NCBI RefSeq assembly: GCF_002283365.1
Contig: NZ_MQWD01000001.1
Span: forward strand, 559,694-623,693
Reading direction: 5' to 3'
DNA length: 64,000 bases
Origin: Rubrivirga marina
Lineage (GTDB): Bacteria > Bacteroidota > Rhodothermia > Rhodothermales > Rubricoccaceae
The notes under the pieces were generated by a model. That model made no database searches, was not told the DNA's origin, and worked only from the letters and a program-made list of their open reading frames with translations. Below, piece by piece: positions 8,139 to 19,348 of this stretch. Numbering within the stretch: position 1 is the stretch's first letter; the number at the start of each line of letters is the position of its first letter. A program made the translations under genes and the position numbers.

Positions 8139-8912
8139 TTAGACGACGGTGACGGTGATGCCGGACTCCTCCATCTGGGAGACCATGCCGGCCGGGATCG
8201 CCTCGCTCGTGATCACCTGGTGGACCTGCTCGGTGCCGCACATCCGGCCGAAGCTGCGGAGTCCGAACTTCGAGGCGTCCGCCACGACGATGACCTGCTC
8301 GGCCGCCTCGATCATGCGCGTGTTGAGGTGCGCCTCCAACGCGCTCGACGTCGTCAGGCCATACTGCAGGTCGAACCCGTCGACCCCGAGGAACAGCTTG
8401 CGGCACGAGAACTGGCCGAGCACCATCTCCGCGATCGGGCCCGCCACCGAGGTCGAGGTGTGACGAACGACTCCGCCGAGCATGTGGACTTCGATGCCAG
8501 GGACGCCGGTCAGCTCTAGGGCCACGTTCATCGCGTTCGTGACGACGCTCAACCCTACCCGGTCCCTGAGCCGGCCGAGTTGGGCGGCCACCTGACGCAC
8601 GGTCGTCCCCGAGGCGAGGATGACGCGGTCGTGGTCGTCGATGAGCGCCGCTGCCGCCGCGCCGATCTTCCGCTTCTCCTCGGCGTGCTGCTCCGCCTTC
8701 TCCGCAACCGGCCGGTCCCGGACGATGAGGCTCCGCGTCGTCGCGCCCCCGTGCGTCCGCTGGAGGAGGTTCTGCTCTTCGAGGAAGCTCAGGTCACGCC
8801 GGACCGTCACGTCCGACACGTCGAGGACCTCACTGAGCCCGGACACCGTCACGAACCCCTGGTCTTTTAGCGTCTGAAGAATGTGGTTGTGCCGTTCAGC
8901 CGGGAGTTGCAT
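8139..8912 (-). CDS. glpR: DeoR-family regulator, GlpR-like
   Basis: 257 residues from the ATG complement of 8910-8912 (MQLPAERHNHILQTL), which fits the family start. An upstream frame to 8933 is possible. The DeoR winged helix is clear: FVTVSGLSEVLDVSDVTVRRDLSFLEEQNLLQRTHGGA (residues about 20-57), followed by the ribose-5-phosphate-isomerase-like sensor domain with ILASGTTV (about 100), VVTNAMNVALEL and KLFLGVDGFDLQYGLTTSS. Such regulators bind a sugar phosphate; GlpR binds glycerol-3-phosphate and de-represses glp genes. Its place as the last gene of a complete glp cluster, 90 bases beyond glpF, makes GlpR the natural identity. That identity rests on context more than on residues. Confidence 0.85.
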   Translation of the reverse strand: MQLPAERHNHILQTLKDQGFVTVSGLSEVLDVSDVTVRRDLSFLEEQNLLQRTHGGATTRSLIVRDRPVAEKAEQHAEEKRKIGAAAAALIDDHDRVILASGTTVRQVAAQLGRLRDRVGLSVVTNAMNVALELTGVPGIEVHMLGGVVRHTSTSVAGPIAEMVLGQFSCRKLFLGVDGFDLQYGLTTSSALEAHLNTRMIEAAEQVIVVADASKFGLRSFGRMCGTEQVHQVITSEAIPAGMVSQMEESGITVTVV

Positions 8913-9002
8913 GTTGCGGTATGATGTGACCACCTCGTACGGACCCCGCGGGTCCCGTAGGTACGTGTCTCGAAACGGGTTCCGCGCAGCGCCGTTCCGG
9001 CC

Positions 9003-9710
9003 CTAACCGAGCAGCAGGTACAGCAGGCCAGCCAGCCCACCGCCGATCAACGGGCCGAGAATCGGGACGGCGCTGTAGCCCCAGTCGCTCGGCCCCTTGC
9101 CCGGAATCGGGAGCAGGGCGTGCACGATCCGTGGCCCCAGGTCACGAGCCGGATTGATGGCGTAGCCTGTGGTCCCGCCGAGGGCGAGACCGATCACGAG
9201 TACGACGAGGGCGACCGGCAGCGCGTCGAGCGCGCCCAGGCCCACCTCGGGCGCCGCGAGGAACAGGACGGCGAAGACGAGAACGAACGTCCCGATGACC
9301 TCGGAGGCCAGGTTGTCGGGCACCGAACGGATGGCCGGACCGGTCGCGAAGACGGCCAGCTTGGCGCCGGGGTCGTCGGTCTCGGCGAAGTGGAGCCGGT
9401 AGTGGACCCACACGAGCGCCGCGCCGAGCATCGCCCCGAGGAGCTGCGCCAGGAGGTACATCGGCACCAGCGCCCACTCGAACTTGCCGGCCACCGCCAG
9501 CCCGACCGTCACGGCCGGGTTGAGGTGCGCCCCGCTGGCGGCGGCGACGGTGAACACGGCCACGAACACGGCCATCGCCCACCCGAGCGTGATGACGATC
9601 CAGCCGCTGGCCTCGCCCTTCGTGCCGCGGAGCACGACGTTGGCGACGACGCCGTCGCCCAGGAGGAGGAGCAGGGCCGTCCCGATGAGTTCGCCGAGGA
9701 AGGGGGTCAT
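9003..9710 (-). CDS. glpF: Glycerol uptake facilitator (aquaglyceroporin)
   Basis: 235 residues with six hydrophobic helices and two half-helices. The pore motifs are HLNPAVTVG (about residues 62-70) and INPARDLGPR (about 187-196). The Asp after NPAR is the classical marker of glycerol-conducting members as opposed to water-only aquaporins. It is an inner-membrane channel for passive glycerol entry. It lies 24 bases downstream of the glpT-like gene and 90 upstream of glpR in the same direction, so it is the permeation step for the kinase and dehydrogenase encoded earlier in the run. Confidence 0.93.
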   Translation of the reverse strand: MTPFLGELIGTALLLLLGDGVVANVVLRGTKGEASGWIVITLGWAMAVFVAVFTVAAASGAHLNPAVTVGLAVAGKFEWALVPMYLLAQLLGAMLGAALVWVHYRLHFAETDDPGAKLAVFATGPAIRSVPDNLASEVIGTFVLVFAVLFLAAPEVGLGALDALPVALVVLVIGLALGGTTGYAINPARDLGPRIVHALLPIPGKGPSDWGYSAVPILGPLIGGGLAGLLYLLLG

Positions 9711-9734: not shown

Positions 9735-11054
9735 TCAGCCGCGGGGGCGGAGCCGGACGGTGAAGGCGAGGAGGAGGATGCCGATGAGCGTCGCGCCCAA
9801 GATGGAGTACAGCGCGGCGTCCCACGAGTGGTACTCGGCGAGGTACCCGATCCCCTTGCCCTGGATCATCCGGCCGATGTAGCCGAAGAGCCCGACGAAC
9901 CCGGCCGCTGTGCCGACGGCCTTCTTCGAGGTGAAGTCGAGGGCGGCCACGCCGAGCAACATGACGGGCGGGTAGATGAAGAAGCCGATCACCGCCAGGA
10001 GCGCCATGTCGATCCACAGCGCGCCCTCCGGCACCAACATGATCCCGGCAAAGGCGAGGAAGACGGGGATCATGCACAGGAAGCTGACCAGCCCGCGCCG
10101 GCCGCCGAGGCGGTCGGACACCCAGCCCATCAGGATCGTGCTGGCGATCCCCGAGAACTCGAGGACGAAGATGCCGAACCCGCCGCCCTCGACGCTGGCC
10201 CCCTTCACCTCGGCGAGGTACGTCGGCCCCCAGTCGAGCATGCTGTAGCGGGCCACGTACACGAACAGGTTGGCGATGGCGACGAGCCAGATGAGCGGGT
10301 TCGTGAGGACGTAGTCGACGAACAGCTCGCGGAAACTGAGCTCCCGTTCGTGGTCTTCCTTCTCATCCGGCGGGAAGTCGTCCTTGTACTCCTCGATGGG
10401 CGGCAGGCCCTCCGACTGGGGCGTGTCGCGGAGCCGCCAGAACAGGTACACGGCGCCGACGAGCGCCAGCACGCCGGGCACAAAGAACGCGTACTGCCAG
10501 CCCCCAAACGTCGTGATGCTGTAGGCCGCGATCAGGCCGATGAGGCCGCCGCCGATGTTGTGGGCCACGTTCCACACGCCGAACACCGAGCCCCGCTCGC
10601 GCACGCTGTACCAGTGGCCGAGCGACCGGCCGCACGGCGGCCACCCCATCCCCTGCACGAACCCGTTGAGGGTCCACAGCAGGAGGTGGACCGAGTACGA
10701 GTCCACCCAACCGAAGGCGAAGTTGCAGACGGCGCTCAGCAAGAGCCCCGCCGGCATGAAGTAGCGCGGGTTGCTCCGGTCGGAGAGCGACCCCATCAGG
10801 AACTTGCCCAGGCCGTAGGCGATCGCCGTGACGGCGAAGATGTTGCCGATGTCGTCCTTCGAGTACAGCAGCGCCTCCCCCATCGTGTCCGCCGCCACCG
10901 CGAGGTTGTTGCGGACGAGGTAGAAGGTGGCGTACCCGATGAAGGTGGCCTCCAGGATCTGCCATCGCATCTTGGGATACTTCCGCTGGACCTCGTCCTC
11001 GGGGAGGCGAGGCGCGGGGGGCGCGGGGGCGAACAGCGTGCGGAGCGAGGGCAT
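9735..11054 (-). CDS. glpT: Glycerol-3-phosphate transporter (MFS antiporter, GlpT)
   Basis: 439 residues, twelve predicted membrane helices in two halves joined by an acidic cytoplasmic loop (about residues 222-250, rich in Asp/Glu/Lys). The GlpT/UhpT organophosphate:phosphate antiporter signature is present in [38 protein letters not shown] and the N-terminal [11 protein letters not shown]. Members exchange external glycerol-3-phosphate for cytoplasmic phosphate. The preceding gene encodes a glycerophosphodiesterase that would release its substrate in the periplasm. The gene is 18 bases downstream of that one. Confidence 0.92.
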
Positions 11055-11072: not shown

Positions 11073-12725
11073 CTAGCGGCCGACGGCGGCGAGCGCGCGG
11101 TCCGGGTAGTCGGAGATGAGGCCGTCGACGCCGAGGTCGACGAGCGCGCGCATGGCGGCCTCGTCGTTGACCGTCCACGGGATGACCTGGACGCCCCGCC
11201 GGTGGGCCTCCGCCACGAGCGCCGCGTCGACGAGGCGCTGGTGCGGGCTGTAGATGTCCGGCGTGAAGCTGAGCCGGTCGAGGTTCGCCGCCAGCCCGTC
11301 GTCGTTGTCGACGAGGAGGGCCATCGTGACCGTCGGGTCGATGGCGTGCGTGGCCTCGAGGGCGCGCGGGTCGAACGACTGGACGGTCGTCCGGCCGAGC
11401 ACGCCGTGGCCCGCGAGCACGTCGTAGAGCGCGCGGGCGTAGGCCGGCGGGCGCGGCGTGAACACGCTGTCGCGGGCCGGGCTCGACTTGATCTCGATGT
11501 TGTAGCGGACCGGCCCGAGCGCGTCCGGGCGCGGGTGCGCCTCGGCCAGGTCGAGGACTTGGGACAGGAGCGGCTTGACGGTCGGCATCGCCTCCTGGTC
11601 GGGGAAGCGCGGGTTGCCCCGGCGGCCGCAGTCGAACTGCGCGATCTCGGCGTACGTCATGTGTCCGAGGCTGTAGGCGTCCTCCTCGTGCTCCGGGATC
11701 GCCGTGCCGTCCGGCCGCGAACAGATCTCGGCGTTGAACCACGGCTCGTGCGAGAGGAGCACCTGGCCGTCGGCCGAGACGGCCACGTCCATCTCCAGCG
11801 TCGTCACGCCGAGGTCGAGGGCGCGTTGCATCGCCGGGAGGCTGTTCTCGGGGAGCAGGCCCCGCGCGCCGCGGTGCCCCTGAACGTCGAGGCCGGGCGC
11901 CGGGCCGAGGAGGCCGGCCATGGCCGCCGCGAACCGGCCGCCGATGGCCCGGTAGCTCGGCGCGTCGTAGTGGACCCGGTCGACCAGCGACAGGTCATCG
12001 GTCGTGATCATCCGGACGTGCGGGAGGTCGACGCTGGCCTGCTGGGCCTGGACCGTCTCCCAGTTCACGTAGCGGTCGGGCGCCGTGTGCGGCCCGATCT
12101 GCGCGAACACGACGGGCAAGCGCGGCTGGCCGAGGTCGCGCCGGAGGTCGTGGACGTAGCGCGTAAAGTGGCGGGCCCAGGTGTCGGGGCGGAGCGGGAA
12201 TCCGTGGAGCGTCTCGCGGTCGTTCGTGTCGCTCTCGCCCTGGAAAAAGAGGACGCCGGCGACCCGGCCCATCGGCTCGGCGGCGCGGACGCGCTTGAGG
12301 CACGAGCCGTAGAGCGAGGCGTCGTCGACGCTGGTGTGCCACTCCTCGATGATGGTGGCGCCCTTGGCGCACGGGATCAGCCCGATGACGAGGCCCGGGT
12401 AGCGGGCCTTGAGCGAGTCGGCGAAGGCGCGCGACGGGCCGAAGCCGGCGGCCGCGTCCAGCGAGACGGCGTCGACCTGGCCCTCCGGCGAGTCGACCGG
12501 CTCGACGGCGGCCCGCCAGCGGCCGTCGTTGCCGAAGACGTAGACCGACGGGTCGATGGCCTGGGTCTCGGGCAGCGGCGCGCGGCCCGACATGTTCGAC
12601 TGGCCGGCGAGCACGAACAGCGCCAGCCGCCCGACGTGCGCCGAGTCGACGCCGACGGCGGGCTGGGCCGCGACGGGCGCGAGGCCGGCGGCGGCGAGGA
12701 GGAGGAGGAGACGGAGGCGGACCAT
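11073..12725 (-). CDS. Fused acetyl-esterase (SASA/SGNH-type) and glycerophosphodiester phosphodiesterase
   Basis: 550 residues with a Sec signal peptide (1-20, ending AQPA). Residues about 35-275 are a sialate-O-acetylesterase-type carbohydrate esterase: FVLAGQSNMSGRAPLPE holds the serine nucleophile, FFQGESDTND the oxyanion-hole Gln/Gly/Glu block, and VHYDAPSYRAIG the catalytic His. Residues about 278-550 are a complete GDPD barrel: QGHRGARGLLPENSLPA, LEMDVAVSADGQVLLSHEP, YNIEIKSS, VQSFD and a VIPWTVND end. The second half should hydrolyse glycerophosphodiesters to glycerol-3-phosphate and an alcohol. The first should remove O-acetyl or similar acyl groups. The fusion sits between glpD and glpT, so the product can be imported at once. 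The link between the two activities is inference. Confidence 0.88.
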   Translation of the reverse strand: MVRLRLLLLLAAAGLAPVAAQPAVGVDSAHVGRLALFVLAGQSNMSGRAPLPETQAIDPSVYVFGNDGRWRAAVEPVDSPEGQVDAVSLDAAAGFGPSRAFADSLKARYPGLVIGLIPCAKGATIIEEWHTSVDDASLYGSCLKRVRAAEPMGRVAGVLFFQGESDTNDRETLHGFPLRPDTWARHFTRYVHDLRRDLGQPRLPVVFAQIGPHTAPDRYVNWETVQAQQASVDLPHVRMITTDDLSLVDRVHYDAPSYRAIGGRFAAAMAGLLGPAPGLDVQGHRGARGLLPENSLPAMQRALDLGVTTLEMDVAVSADGQVLLSHEPWFNAEICSRPDGTAIPEHEEDAYSLGHMTYAEIAQFDCGRRGNPRFPDQEAMPTVKPLLSQVLDLAEAHPRPDALGPVRYNIEIKSSPARDSVFTPRPPAYARALYDVLAGHGVLGRTTVQSFDPRALEATHAIDPTVTMALLVDNDDGLAANLDRLSFTPDIYSPHQRLVDAALVAEAHRRGVQVIPWTVNDEAAMRALVDLGVDGLISDYPDRALAAVGR

Positions 12726-12730
12726 GGAGG

Positions 12731-14337
12731 TCAGGCAGCGATGGGTTCGGTGGTGGAGGGCACGTCACCGACGACATAGCCGCGGGCGATCTCGACGAAG
12801 GCCTCGACCTGGCCGGCCTCCCACTCTTTGTCATGGCCGAGCTCGGCGGCCAGGAGCGCCGCGACCTCCGGAGCGGCCTCGATGCTGGCGCGCGCGTCGA
12901 GCAGGAGCGCCCGTGTGCGGCGGGCCAGCACGTCGTCAACGGTCCGCGCCAGCTCGTGGCGGGCCGCCCACGTCACCATGGCCCGGCAGTAGGGGAGGCC
13001 GGGGTGGAGGGGCTCGACGCCGCCGGGCATCTCGTCCGCCAACTGCCGGAGCGCGGGCGCGTCGTCCCCGTAGACGGTGAGGGCGGGGTCAGTGGGCGGG
13101 CCGCTGAGCCAGCCGTGGAGCCGGCGGTGCATCGTGACCGCCGGCCGCCGCTCCAGCCCGGCCGTCTTGGCCGCGGCGTCGACGGCGTCCTCGCCCATCT
13201 TCCGATACGTCGTCCACTTGCCGCCGGCGATCGTCACGAGGCCGGAGTCCGAGACGGTCAGCCAGTGGTCGCGCGAGATCGAGGCGGTCCGCTTCCCGCC
13301 GCCCTCGCTGACGAGCGGGCGGAGGCCGGCGAACGTGCTGAGCACGTCGGCCTCGGTGGGCTGGCGGGTGAGGTAGCGGCCGGCGTGCTCGAGGAGGAAC
13401 GCGACCTCGTCGTCGAGCGGCACCGGCTCGAGGTCGATCCGATCGACCGGCGTGTCCGTCGTCCCCACGACCACGCGGCCGTGCCACGGGACGGCGAACA
13501 GGACGCGGCCGTCGTCGGTGTGCGGGAGCATCAGCGCCGAGTCGCCCGGCAGGAAGTCGCGGTCGAGCACGAGGTGGACCCCCTGGCTCGGCCGGATCAC
13601 CGGCGCGGCGGCCGGGTCGTCCATGCGTCGGACCCCGTCCGTGAACACGCCCGTCGCGTTGACCACGACGCGCGCGAGGACCTCGTGCGCGTCCCCCGTC
13701 TCCATGTCCTCCGCCACGACGCCCCGCACCTTCCCCTCCTGCTTCATCAGGCGCGTGACGCGCATGTAGTTGAGCGGCACCCCGCCGAGATCGGCCACGG
13801 TCTGCGCGAGGTTGACCGCGAGGCGGCTGTCGTCGAACTGGCCGTCGTGGTAGAGCACGCCGCCCCGGAGCCCGTCGGGGTTGACGGTCGGGAGGTGGGC
13901 CAGCGTCTCGGCCGCCGAGAGCAGGCGCGACCGGCCGAACCCGAGCTTGCCGGCCAGCCAGTCGTAGAGCTTCAGCCCGACCCCGTAGTAGGCCCGCTCC
14001 CAGCGCTTGTAGCACGGGACCACGAACGGCTGGTCGTGAACGAGGTGCGGGGCGTTGCGGATAAGGTGGCCGCGCTCGCGGAGCGCGTCGAGCACGAGCC
14101 GGACATCGCCCTGCTGGAGGTACCGCACGCCGCCGTGGACGAGCTTCGTCGACCGGCTCGAGGTGCCCTTCCCGAAGTCGCTCGCTTCGAGGAGCAGGGT
14201 CGAGTAGCCGCGCGCCGCGGCGTCGACGGCCGTCCCGAGGCCGGTGGCCCCGCCGCCGACGACGACGACGTCCCAGTAGCCGGGGGTCTCCCGGAGCCGG
14301 TCGAGGAGCGCGGGGCGTGTCGGGGGGTCGAGGGGCA

Positions 14338-14338
<1 letters not shown>
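12731..14338 (-). CDS. glpD: Aerobic glycerol-3-phosphate dehydrogenase (FAD)
   Basis: 535 residues from the ATG complement of 14336-14338, whose A is shared with the TGA of glpK (TGATG). A longer frame to 15715 only reads antisense through glpK and is rejected. Features: FAD dinucleotide fold VVVVGGGATGLGTAVDAA (about residues 26-43), GTSSRSTKLVHGGVRYL (about 62-78), the substrate region FAVPWHGRVVVGTTDTP, GLRPLV and IAGGKWTTYRKMGEDAVDAA, and a C-terminal helical cap with two-zinc-independent DUF-like tail. It oxidises glycerol-3-phosphate to dihydroxyacetone phosphate and feeds electrons to quinone at the membrane. Confidence 0.95.
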
Positions 14339-15837
<1,499 letters not shown>

Positions 15838-15847
15838 GGCCGGGGGC

Positions 15848-17350
15848 TTACCAGGCGGGGTCAGCGATGGGATAGAGCGGCCGGCCGGTGTGGGCCTTGT
15901 AGAGCATGACGGGCAGGCCGGGCGTCACCACGTCGTCGGGCACGGCCGCCGCCAGCGCCTCGGCGTCGACCGCCACGGGGTAGCGCTCGCGGAGCGCGGC
16001 GACGACGCGGGGGAGCGAGCCGCGGGCCTTCGCCCGACGGGCGTCGGCGCGGACTTCGGCTGCGAGGGCCTCCGAGCCCAGGCCGAGGCCGTCGTAGTAG
16101 GCCTCGTGGCGCTGGCGGTACGCGGCGACGTCGGCGTCGCTGACGGTCGTCGTGTCGGCGACGTAGTCCACCATGGCCTGGTAGACCCACTTGTCGCGCC
16201 AGCGCCGGAGGTCGGCCGCCACCTCGGGCATCTCGTCCCAGCCCTGCGCGCGGGCCTGCCGCGTGAACGCCTCGTCGCGCAGCGTCAGGCCAACGGCGTC
16301 GTAGAGGCTGCCCTGGAACGCGTCGCGGCTGTCGGTCGAGAGCGGGTATCGCCGCGACGGGTACCGGCGGAGGAGGTCGCCCGCCGTGAGCTCGCCGTCG
16401 ACCGTGGTCGCCACGACGTCGCCGAGGCGGGCGCGGACGGCGTCGGCCGCGGGGCTCGGGTCGGTGGCGAGGGCCGAGGCGAGCGAGAGCGGCGGCGCGG
16501 CGAGCGTGGGCACCCACTCCCAGAGCGCGTCGGTGAGGGCCCGGAAGGCGCCCCCCTTGAGGGTGAGGCCCACCGGCTCCATGCGGCCCGTGACGTACTC
16601 GCGGGCGAGCGCCTTGGCCCGCTGCTGCTCGAGCGTCTGCCGGGCGCGGGTGCGCGCCTCGGCGTCGAGGCCGACCGGCTCGCGCTGCACGTCGGCGACC
16701 TCCACCACGAGGTACTGCCCGCCGGCCGCGATCGGCGCCGACGGCGTGCCCACCGGCAGGTCGCGGATGGCGTCGAGGACCGGCGCCGGCAGCTCGGCCG
16801 GGCTCAGGAACGGCGTCACGAAGTCCTCGGGCTGGAGCTCGACGTCCGCACGGGCGGCCAGCTGGCGGGCGAGCGCGGCGTCGAAGCCCTCCGCCTCGGC
16901 CGTCGCGCGGACCGACCGGGCCTCGTCCAGCGTCCCCGCCGGGATGTAGCGGAGGCGGACGCGGACGGCGTCCTCCTGAAGCACCTGCTGAACTTCGGCG
17001 TCGCTCACCGACACCCGGCGGTTGACCTCCCGCTCGAACACCTGCTCCACGAGCAGCTCGTCTTCGAGGTCGGCGAGCTGACCCCGGACGGCGGCCGTCG
17101 TGTCGAGGCGGAGCCGGTAGCCCTCCTGCGCGAGGAGCGCCTCGGCGACCATGTGGTCGAGGTAGGCCCGGCGCGGGTCCGGCCCCCGTTTGAGATGCGG
17201 GAAGCCCAGTTCGAAGCTCCGCGCGAAGTCCGCCGCGAGGATCGCCTCCTCCCCCACCGTCGCCACGACAAGCGCGTCGGGCGACGGATCGGGTGCCCCA
17301 CACGCGGCGGCCCAGACCGTGGCGGCCAGCACCGCGAGCCGGGCACCCAT
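15848..17350 (-). CDS. SurA/PpiC-like periplasmic chaperone lipoprotein
   Basis: 500 residues from the ATG complement of 17348-17350. The signal [17 protein letters not shown] has a lipobox with Cys at about residue 17, so it is likely a lipoprotein. The N-terminal part ([21 protein letters not shown], then [18 protein letters not shown]) is a SurA_N-type substrate-binding helical domain. A weak rotamase-like segment follows (about residues 130-215, with [16 protein letters not shown] and [18 protein letters not shown] as in PpiC parvulin domains). The C-terminal helical half is of unclear type. Such proteins escort outer-membrane beta-barrels and surface proteins across the periplasm. Its place between the sorted-protein genes and glpK suits that role for the upstream products. 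Catalytic rotamase activity is uncertain. Confidence 0.7.
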
Positions 17351-17380
17351 CGGGAAGCGGGGCCTGCGGTCCGCCACCAC

Positions 17381-19348
17381 CTACCGGGCCCGGGTGATCG
17401 GCCGCGCCACGCGGCCCTCCTCGGTCTCCACCACCACGACGTAGACCCCCGCGGCGTGCGCCGTCGAGTCCCACACGACGTCGGTCGATCCGGCCGGAGC
17501 CGGGCCGTCGAACAGCGTGGCGACCTCGCGGCCCAGCACGTCCTGGACACGGAGCCGAACGGTCCCCGCGCGGGCGAGGTCAAGGGTCAGCGTGGTCCGC
17601 CCACGAAACGGGTTGGGCGCCGCGCCGAGGCGGACCCGCCCGCCCGCCGGTTCGTCGGCGCGTCGGGTCCCGAACGAAACGCCCAGGACGGCCTCCGATG
17701 GGAGGCTGTAGACGAAGGGGTAGAAGACCGGCCACGCGCTGCTGCTCCGCTGGTAGTAGTCGGCGCCGGACTCCGAGTTGGTCCAGAGCGTGCCGTCGGG
17801 GAAGAACGAGAGGTCCTCGATCCCGTACGGGACCGTGATCGTGCTGTCGATCTCGGGCTCGGACCACCGCTGGAGCGCCTCCCGCCGGACGCGGAGGATC
17901 TCGGCCTCGCCCCGGCTCTGGCTCCGGTTCCGCGAGAAGAAGACGTAGGTCTGCCCCTCCACGTCGAACAGGTCCACGCCCTGCACGCTTCGCGGGAGCG
18001 CGTAGATGGCCGGATCGCCCCCGCTCGGGCGGCCGTCGGCGCCCAGCGGGTAGCCGTAGAGGTACGGCGCCTCCGTGCCCGACGGGCGCCAATCGCCGAC
18101 CCACAACGTGTCGCGGAAGGCCGAGACGAACGAGGCCCGGCCGTACACCGAGATCGTCCCCGTCGGGTCCGCCGCGAGGTCGACGTAGGGCGACGCCTCC
18201 GGGTCGTACGGCGGCAGCGGGTACCGCTCCAGCGTGCTCGACGACGACACGTAGATCGCCCCGTCGACGTAGGCGATGCCACCGGCGTGGGAGAATTCGA
18301 GCTCGCCCATGAGCCGGAACGTCCGGCGGACGTGGCCCGTCTCGGCGTCCATCTCGACCACCATCGACCGCCGCTGGCCCGTGATCCCACTCCGGGTCAG
18401 GTGGTAGTACGAGAGGTAGACGAGCGACGCCTCGTCCGAGACGTGGGTGGCCGTCCCCTGCGGGACGAACTCGTCGTTGACGTACGGCACGTAGAACCGG
18501 TGGCGCACCGTGGACTGGTTGTCCCGGATCCGCTGGTCCATCGGCATCAGCCCCTCCGACAGCGGGTAGTCGTGGTAGTCCGGCAGCCCGAGGTAGGGAC
18601 CGCCGTCGAACGGGACCGACGAGGTGAGGTACGCCTCGTCGGCGACGTAGTCGCGGACCGTCGCGGCGAGGAGCTGGCCGCTCAGGCGGCCCGTCATCGT
18701 GTAGCTCTCCGGCGTCCCGGCCGCCTCGGTGCCAACGAAGAAGGGGCGGGAGATCGGGAAGGGCGACGGGATGGCCATCGCCTGCGACTGCGAGCCCGCT
18801 GCCACGCCATCGACGTACAGGCCGAGGGACAGCGTCTGGGTCCCGATGTCGAACCCGACCGTCGCGGCCACCCAGACCGGCGCCCCCGGAGCCACGTCCG
18901 CGGAGGCGTCGAGGCGGAGGGTCTGGCCGGCCGCGCGGACCTCGAAGAACGGCCGCGCGTCGTCGAGACCGAGCGTGAACGTGCCCTCGCCCGAGATCTG
19001 GTTCGAGACGAGGACGGTCCGGCCGGTGGTGGCGGTCAGGACCACCCACGCCTCCGCCGTCAGACGGGGGCCGAACGGCTGCGACAGGGTCTCGGCGACG
19101 TCGCTTCGGAGCGTCGAGCCCGGGGCTTCGAACTCGGCCGCCAGGGGGGCCTGGAGGCCCCAGCCCCCCGGCCCGCGGGCCGGGAGGTCGCGGGCCGCGA
19201 GGTACGGGCCCTCCTCGATCCCGCTGGCGACGACGTCCGTCGAGAGCGCCGCGCGCCCCGGCAGGTACCGGAACACGATGTCCGCCGCTCGCGAGCCCGG
19301 CGAGGCCAGGAGCACGGCGAGAGTGAGAAGCGCCAGGCGGACAGTCAT
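17381..19348 (-). CDS. Secreted protein with LamG-like and propeller-like regions and Por-type sorting domain
   Basis: 655 residues. Signal peptide 1-21. Residues about 60-225 have the concanavalin-like jelly-roll pattern (LTAEAWVVLTATTGRTVLVS, then FEVRAAGQTLRLDASADVAPG). Residues about 250-560 are repeated strand segments of the type seen in beta-propellers (MVVEMDAETGHVRRTFRL, GIAYVDGAIYVSSS, LSFFPDGTLWTN). The end (GAAPNPFRGRTTLTLDLARA to YVVVVETEEGRVARPITRAR) is a type IX secretion sorting-type domain with the PNPF motif. It is therefore expected on the cell surface or released. It sits in the triad-glp run, 77 bases from its upstream neighbour. No enzymatic motif is recognised. Confidence 0.75.
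   Translation of the reverse strand: MTVRLALLTLAVLLASPGSRAADIVFRYLPGRAALSTDVVASGIEEGPYLAARDLPARGPGGWGLQAPLAAEFEAPGSTLRSDVAETLSQPFGPRLTAEAWVVLTATTGRTVLVSNQISGEGTFTLGLDDARPFFEVRAAGQTLRLDASADVAPGAPVWVAATVGFDIGTQTLSLGLYVDGVAAGSQSQAMAIPSPFPISRPFFVGTEAAGTPESYTMTGRLSGQLLAATVRDYVADEAYLTSSVPFDGGPYLGLPDYHDYPLSEGLMPMDQRIRDNQSTVRHRFYVPYVNDEFVPQGTATHVSDEASLVYLSYYHLTRSGITGQRRSMVVEMDAETGHVRRTFRLMGELEFSHAGGIAYVDGAIYVSSSSTLERYPLPPYDPEASPYVDLAADPTGTISVYGRASFVSAFRDTLWVGDWRPSGTEAPYLYGYPLGADGRPSGGDPAIYALPRSVQGVDLFDVEGQTYVFFSRNRSQSRGEAEILRVRREALQRWSEPEIDSTITVPYGIEDLSFFPDGTLWTNSESGADYYQRSSSAWPVFYPFVYSLPSEAVLGVSFGTRRADEPAGGRVRLGAAPNPFRGRTTLTLDLARAGTVRLRVQDVLGREVATLFDGPAPAGSTDVVWDSTAHAAGVYVVVVETEEGRVARPITRAR

Follow-up and report, generated by a model that had tools for sequence, protein, structure and literature searches.

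An apparently singular fusion of a SASA-type esterase and a GlpQ-type glycerophosphodiesterase in the glp operon of Rubrivirga marina

In Escherichia coli, the periplasmic enzyme GlpQ, a secreted glycerophosphodiesterase (GDPD), makes glycerol-3-phosphate, and its gene adjoins glpT (PMC5438359). In esterases of the SASA family, the QGES motif is block III, which orients the Gln of the GQSNM motif into the oxyanion hole (PMC9487903); the criteria used here for the catalytic triad and the inverted oxyanion hole (a Gln before the Ser and a QGE block III) were taken from the same paper. This GlpQ is without an esterase domain, and the SASA/CE6 proteins of known structure that are most like the one described here, At4g34215 (2APJ) and 1ZMB from Clostridium acetobutylicum, are not joined to a GDPD.

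Within the 64,000-nucleotide stretch of the Rubrivirga marina genome analysed here (the window), the two families meet in one gene (Table 1). The reading frame begins with ATG, encodes 550 amino acids without an internal stop, and remains open for just 13 codons 5' of the ATG. Its product gives two nearly full-length Pfam matches, one to SASA (PF03629; E 5.4e-51; 173.8 bits versus a cut-off of 24.8; profile positions 3-225 of 226) and the other to GDPD (PF03009; E 1.3e-31; 111 bits versus a cut-off of 23.6; profile positions 1-243 of 244), and GDPD_2 (PF13653) also matches (E 1.3e-8). The gene order is glpK-glpD-fusion-glpT-glpF-deoR, with the glpD stop only 5 bp before the ATG of the fusion and the end of the fusion 18 bp before glpT. 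Thus, the esterase-GDPD fusion within a glp operon that the first-pass annotation had described is borne out by a single intact open frame, two complete domains, and glp neighbours. It is a genuine, apparently singular architecture; both of its enzyme families and the operon itself are well known. At window positions 15848-19348, 5' of glpK, lie a PPIase-like gene and a gene for an exported LamG/FlgD-Ig protein. The former is kept beside glpK or glpD in three relatives (L171, L172, and L179) and the latter in L179, and both may belong to the glp locus, judging from this gene order.

Table 1. Features of the glp locus and of the fusion protein (window coordinates)
Feature	Position	Strand	Basis
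DeoR-family regulator (GlpR-like)	8139..8933	-	family match
glpF-like MIP channel	9003..9710	-	MIP/GlpF family match
glpT-like organophosphate antiporter	9735..11054	-	glpT models match best, below equivalog cut-offs
SASA-GDPD fusion protein, 550 aa	11073..12725	-	ORF and Pfam domains
GDPD TIM-barrel domain, residues 284-542	11100..11876	-	Pfam, alignment, model
Short inter-domain linker, residues 271-278 (AGLLGPAP)	11892..11915	-	Pfam bounds; low-pLDDT segment 272-277
SASA / CE6-like SGNH acetylesterase domain, residues 35-270	11916..12623	-	Pfam, alignment, structure model
Sec/SPI-type signal peptide, residues 1-21 (MVRLRLLLLLAAAGLAPVAAQ), no lipobox Cys; cleavage point approximate	12663..12725	-	read by eye from sequence
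glpD glycerol-3-phosphate dehydrogenase, start inferred	12731..14338	-	Pfam; NCBIfam below cut-off
glpK glycerol kinase	14338..15837	-	above its NCBIfam cut-off
PPIase-like gene, syntenic 5' of glpK or glpD in relatives	15848..17380	-	

The fusion has been seen in one genome only, as would be expected if assembly or sequencing had joined two separate genes. Such an error, raised earlier as what might undo the finding, is nevertheless extremely improbable: the gene lies within a 4.71-Mb contig and not at its edge, two complete domains meet in frame, GC and GC3 are continuous across the junction, and the flanking synteny is conserved in relatives.

SASA-GDPD is a real new domain architecture, found in one genome only. 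Among the matches listed, there was no second fusion in 244 class-level genomes, in 289 genomes of the Polyangium class, in 321 genomes of a gammaproteobacterial class, in 395 genomes of the phylum searched with the esterase half, or in plasmids or phages. A fusion resembling that of Rubrivirga marina would rank near the top of such matches; the searches were not centred on Planctomycetes or other SASA-rich phyla, could miss fusions that are weak or of inverted order, and may have used sets from which the nearest records of the same organism are absent. Viral contigs gave no match to the fusion, and viral SASA loci had no adjacent GDPD. Furthermore, a scan of 84,980 species, restricted to close relatives by the peptide patterns used, gave no second fusion, and nothing relevant was found when the literature was searched for a GDPD fused to SASA or SGNH. 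Several candidates were rejected: longer open frames at five loci (L063, L125, L128, L062, and L064) were read through and contain no SASA motif, and in Spirilliplanes yamanashiensis (L083:5719-7947) a single open frame contains a tandem of two GDPD domains. The search for SASA+GDPD architectures that the first-pass annotation had proposed has been run, and it leaves a real fusion of which no other example was found.

The GDPD half has all of the expected catalytic residues (H-R, E-x-D, H, and E-x-K), and H284, R285, E311, D313, H326, E411, K413, and W517 are invariant in an alignment of 35 GDPD sequences. Its nearest solved relative is 3CH0 (E 9e-62), much closer than E. coli GlpQ itself, to which the sequence match is weak (1YDY, E 1.5e-4). 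The likeness to GlpQ lies in the same type of catalytic residues and in a GDPD, here predicted to be exported, that is encoded with a GlpT-type transporter. Modelling placed this half at pLDDT 89-98 in ten-residue blocks. In a model of the full-length protein (pTM 0.58), the SASA half was poor because the alignment held no SASA rows, and domain orientation was therefore left uninterpreted; a mixed alignment of SASA-only and GDPD-only sequences was misaligned and was not used, and the halves were modelled separately. Homology and synteny support the prediction that the GDPD half cleaves glycerophosphodiesters as a GlpQ-type enzyme. By analogy with GlpQ in E. coli, it very probably feeds glycerol-3-phosphate to the adjacent GlpT-like transporter. 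The same two lines of evidence favour this predicted hand-over, which had been suggested earlier, with a transporter that falls below the glpT equivalog cut-off of TIGR00712 (467.5 versus 632.55 bits) and passes the cut-off of TIGR00881, the organophosphate-transporter model (409.8 versus 407.75 bits). Given the shortfall against the equivalog, another organophosphate could be its substrate.

The esterase half is equally complete. The triad residues S43 (12597-12599), D249 (11979-11981), and H252 (11970-11972) are invariant in all 12 aligned SASA sequences, as are the oxyanion residue Q42 of GQSNM and Q162-G163-E164 of block III. Thus, the first-pass annotation was correct in finding both sets of catalytic motifs intact; its assignment of the acid to the Asp of 'HYD' fails, since that residue, D254, is not conserved (D, G, or S among homologues) and the triad Asp is D249 of a D-R-V-H motif, three residues ahead of the catalytic His. 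Nor is QGES an element of the triad. A model of the SASA domain (pLDDT 90.4) has as its closest PDB folds 2APJ (Z 30.9; rmsd 1.9 over 222 residues) and 1ZMB (Z 29.0), the latter a Clostridium acetylxylan-esterase relative. With these two proteins it shares the fold, the S-D-H triad, and an inverted oxyanion hole formed by the Gln of GQSNM and QGE; it differs in having a Phe before QGE. The acetylesterases CE20, NanS, and SIAE come next (Z 19-22), and other SGNH enzymes score about 16 or less. This fold favours acetyl-carbohydrate-type substrates over fatty acyl esters, and the domain most probably acts as an O-acetylesterase. The Rubrivirga marina genome encodes further SASA and GDPD proteins, so the fusion gene is perhaps dispensable for either function.

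Comparison with relatives from the same order suggests how the fusion arose. Two of these (L171 and L172) have the order PPIase-glpK-glpD-gdpd-glpF-glpT and a third (L179) LamG-like-PPIase-glpD-gdpd, with a stand-alone gdpd in each; written in full, the window has LamG-PPIase-glpK-glpD-[SASA-gdpd]-glpT-glpF-deoR. The GDPDs in the same operon slot of order relatives (L010, L012, L014, L089, and others) are about 53-58% identical to that of the fusion, with the same upstream PPIase in those operons that were checked; they differ in bearing a short lipoprotein leader rather than a SASA domain, and their operons have glpF-glpT rather than glpT-glpF. Where the operon enzyme stands alone, a lipobox or SPI-like leader runs straight into the conserved motif D(L/V)QGHRG at which the GDPD starts; the fusion has, in place of this leader, a SASA domain that brings a signal peptide of its own. 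To the eye, the N-terminal sequence MVRLRLLLLLAAAGLAPVAAQ resembles a Sec signal peptide and lacks a lipobox. The predicted export of the protein, as proposed from the outset, agrees both with this reading and with the leaders on the GDPDs of relatives. A tree of 81 GDPDs places the fusion as sister to a clade whose members are glp-linked wherever their context is known, with support of 98/92 and 98/82 on two nested branches. These sequence comparisons are most simply read as an ancestral operon that already included the GDPD, with the esterase added in this lineage. Given the stand-alone gdpd of relatives and the placement in the tree, a GlpQ-type enzyme would have exchanged its lipoprotein leader for an esterase domain with its own signal peptide.

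The nearest SASA relatives among the matches listed are stand-alone Polyangium proteins (L057, L058, and L060), 54-55% identical over residues 17-273, which have an N-terminal hydrophobic segment and no GDPD match within the flanks examined; the best SASA matches inside the phylum are 30-40% identical. A paralogue in the same genome was considered as the source and rejected, since the other SASA matches there have split domains and reach no more than about 32% identity, over only a portion of the domain. Horizontal transfer of the whole operon is likewise not favoured, given that PPIase-glpK-glpD-gdpd synteny is common to the order relatives, although every other member of the family that was searched lacks glpT, which would leave some room for such a transfer. 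The sister clade takes in the GDPDs of two gammaproteobacterial MAGs with gdpd-glpT pairs (L021:5881-8177 and L022:5848-8189), whose position, nested among those of the window's order, suggests either horizontal transfer or foreign contigs in the bins. In two genomes of the window's own family (L098:7901-10301 and L101), a GDPD lies beside a convergent glpD; the L098 enzyme falls in another clade and shows no clear signal peptide. A Hymenobacter plasmid (L159:1-6807) carries a related GDPD (53% identity) whose neighbours are SusC/SusD and a calcineurin-like phosphoesterase, a setting that hints at the import of a phospho-glycan or lipid head group.

Taken together, these results make it reasonably probable that an exported GlpQ-type glycerophosphodiesterase has here acquired an N-terminal SASA/CE6 acetylesterase domain. 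From what is known of the families, the GDPD half would convert glycerophosphodiesters to glycerol-3-phosphate and an alcohol outside the cytoplasmic membrane; the GlpT-like transporter would import the glycerol-3-phosphate for oxidation by GlpD, and GlpF and GlpK would handle free glycerol. The SASA half would strip O-acetyl (short acyl) groups by means of S43-H252-D249, with Q42 placed by QGE in an inverted oxyanion hole. As a guess, the tether may be kept since both activities are of use on one pool of partly acetylated material that bears glycerol; with one genome only, there is no conservation argument for selection on the fusion.

What the esterase contributes can be read in several ways. 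The short linker, the two complete active sites, the predicted common export, the glp operon, and the carbohydrate-acetylesterase fold would all suit an enzyme with a single target for its two halves. The target would be an O-acetylated glycerophosphodiester or glycerophosphoglycan, and de-acetylation would expose the phosphodiester that the GDPD then cuts. However, the syntenic relatives have the GDPD with no esterase to partner it, the glp-linked GDPDs examined have no SASA match in the surrounding 5 kb or so, and no such substrate has been identified in the lineage. We regard this reading as somewhat unlikely, and the only pointer to it is the fusion itself. A still more specific form, in which one exported enzyme would de-acetylate and cut an O-acetylated glycerophospho-polymer and send glycerol-3-phosphate to GlpT, is doubtful. 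The single O-acylated glycerophosphodiester that the first-pass annotation had envisaged for both halves is not supported, given the partnerless GDPDs of relatives and a fusion confined to one genome.

The esterase might instead be an accidental passenger, which provided a signal peptide and a start once the lipoprotein leader had been lost and which acts, if at all, on unrelated acetyl-esters. Its single occurrence, its position exactly where the export leader stood, and a GDPD clade that works alone elsewhere make this about as probable as the shared-substrate reading, and so again somewhat unlikely; a full set of catalytic residues and a codon bias common to both halves argue against it, as the esterase is not visibly decayed. 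Scavenging of phospholipids, with the SGNH half as a lysophospholipase that removes acyl chains and the GDPD cutting the resulting glycerophosphodiester, would be a logical route into glycerol-3-phosphate, and SGNH-like folds do include lysophospholipases (8A26, E 1.1e-3). Yet both sequence and fold are SASA/CE6, well ahead of the lipase-type SGNH folds, and the solved relatives are mostly carbohydrate acetylesterases, which leaves this route very unlikely.

The fusion is informative as a clean domain gain in a conserved operon, in which the state before (a lipoprotein GDPD) and the state after (an esterase-GDPD) can be compared gene for gene; its biochemical interest is modest. If an O-acetylated glycerophospho-polymer is indeed attacked, the fusion would be a sign of an acetylated glycerophosphodiester, a nutrient or a polymer of the cell surface, that has yet to be described, and if the two activities share a substrate, that substrate would name an acetylated glycerophosphodiester scavenged by bacteria. 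If they do not, the fusion would show how an enzyme domain can be taken up for no other role than to stand in for an export leader.
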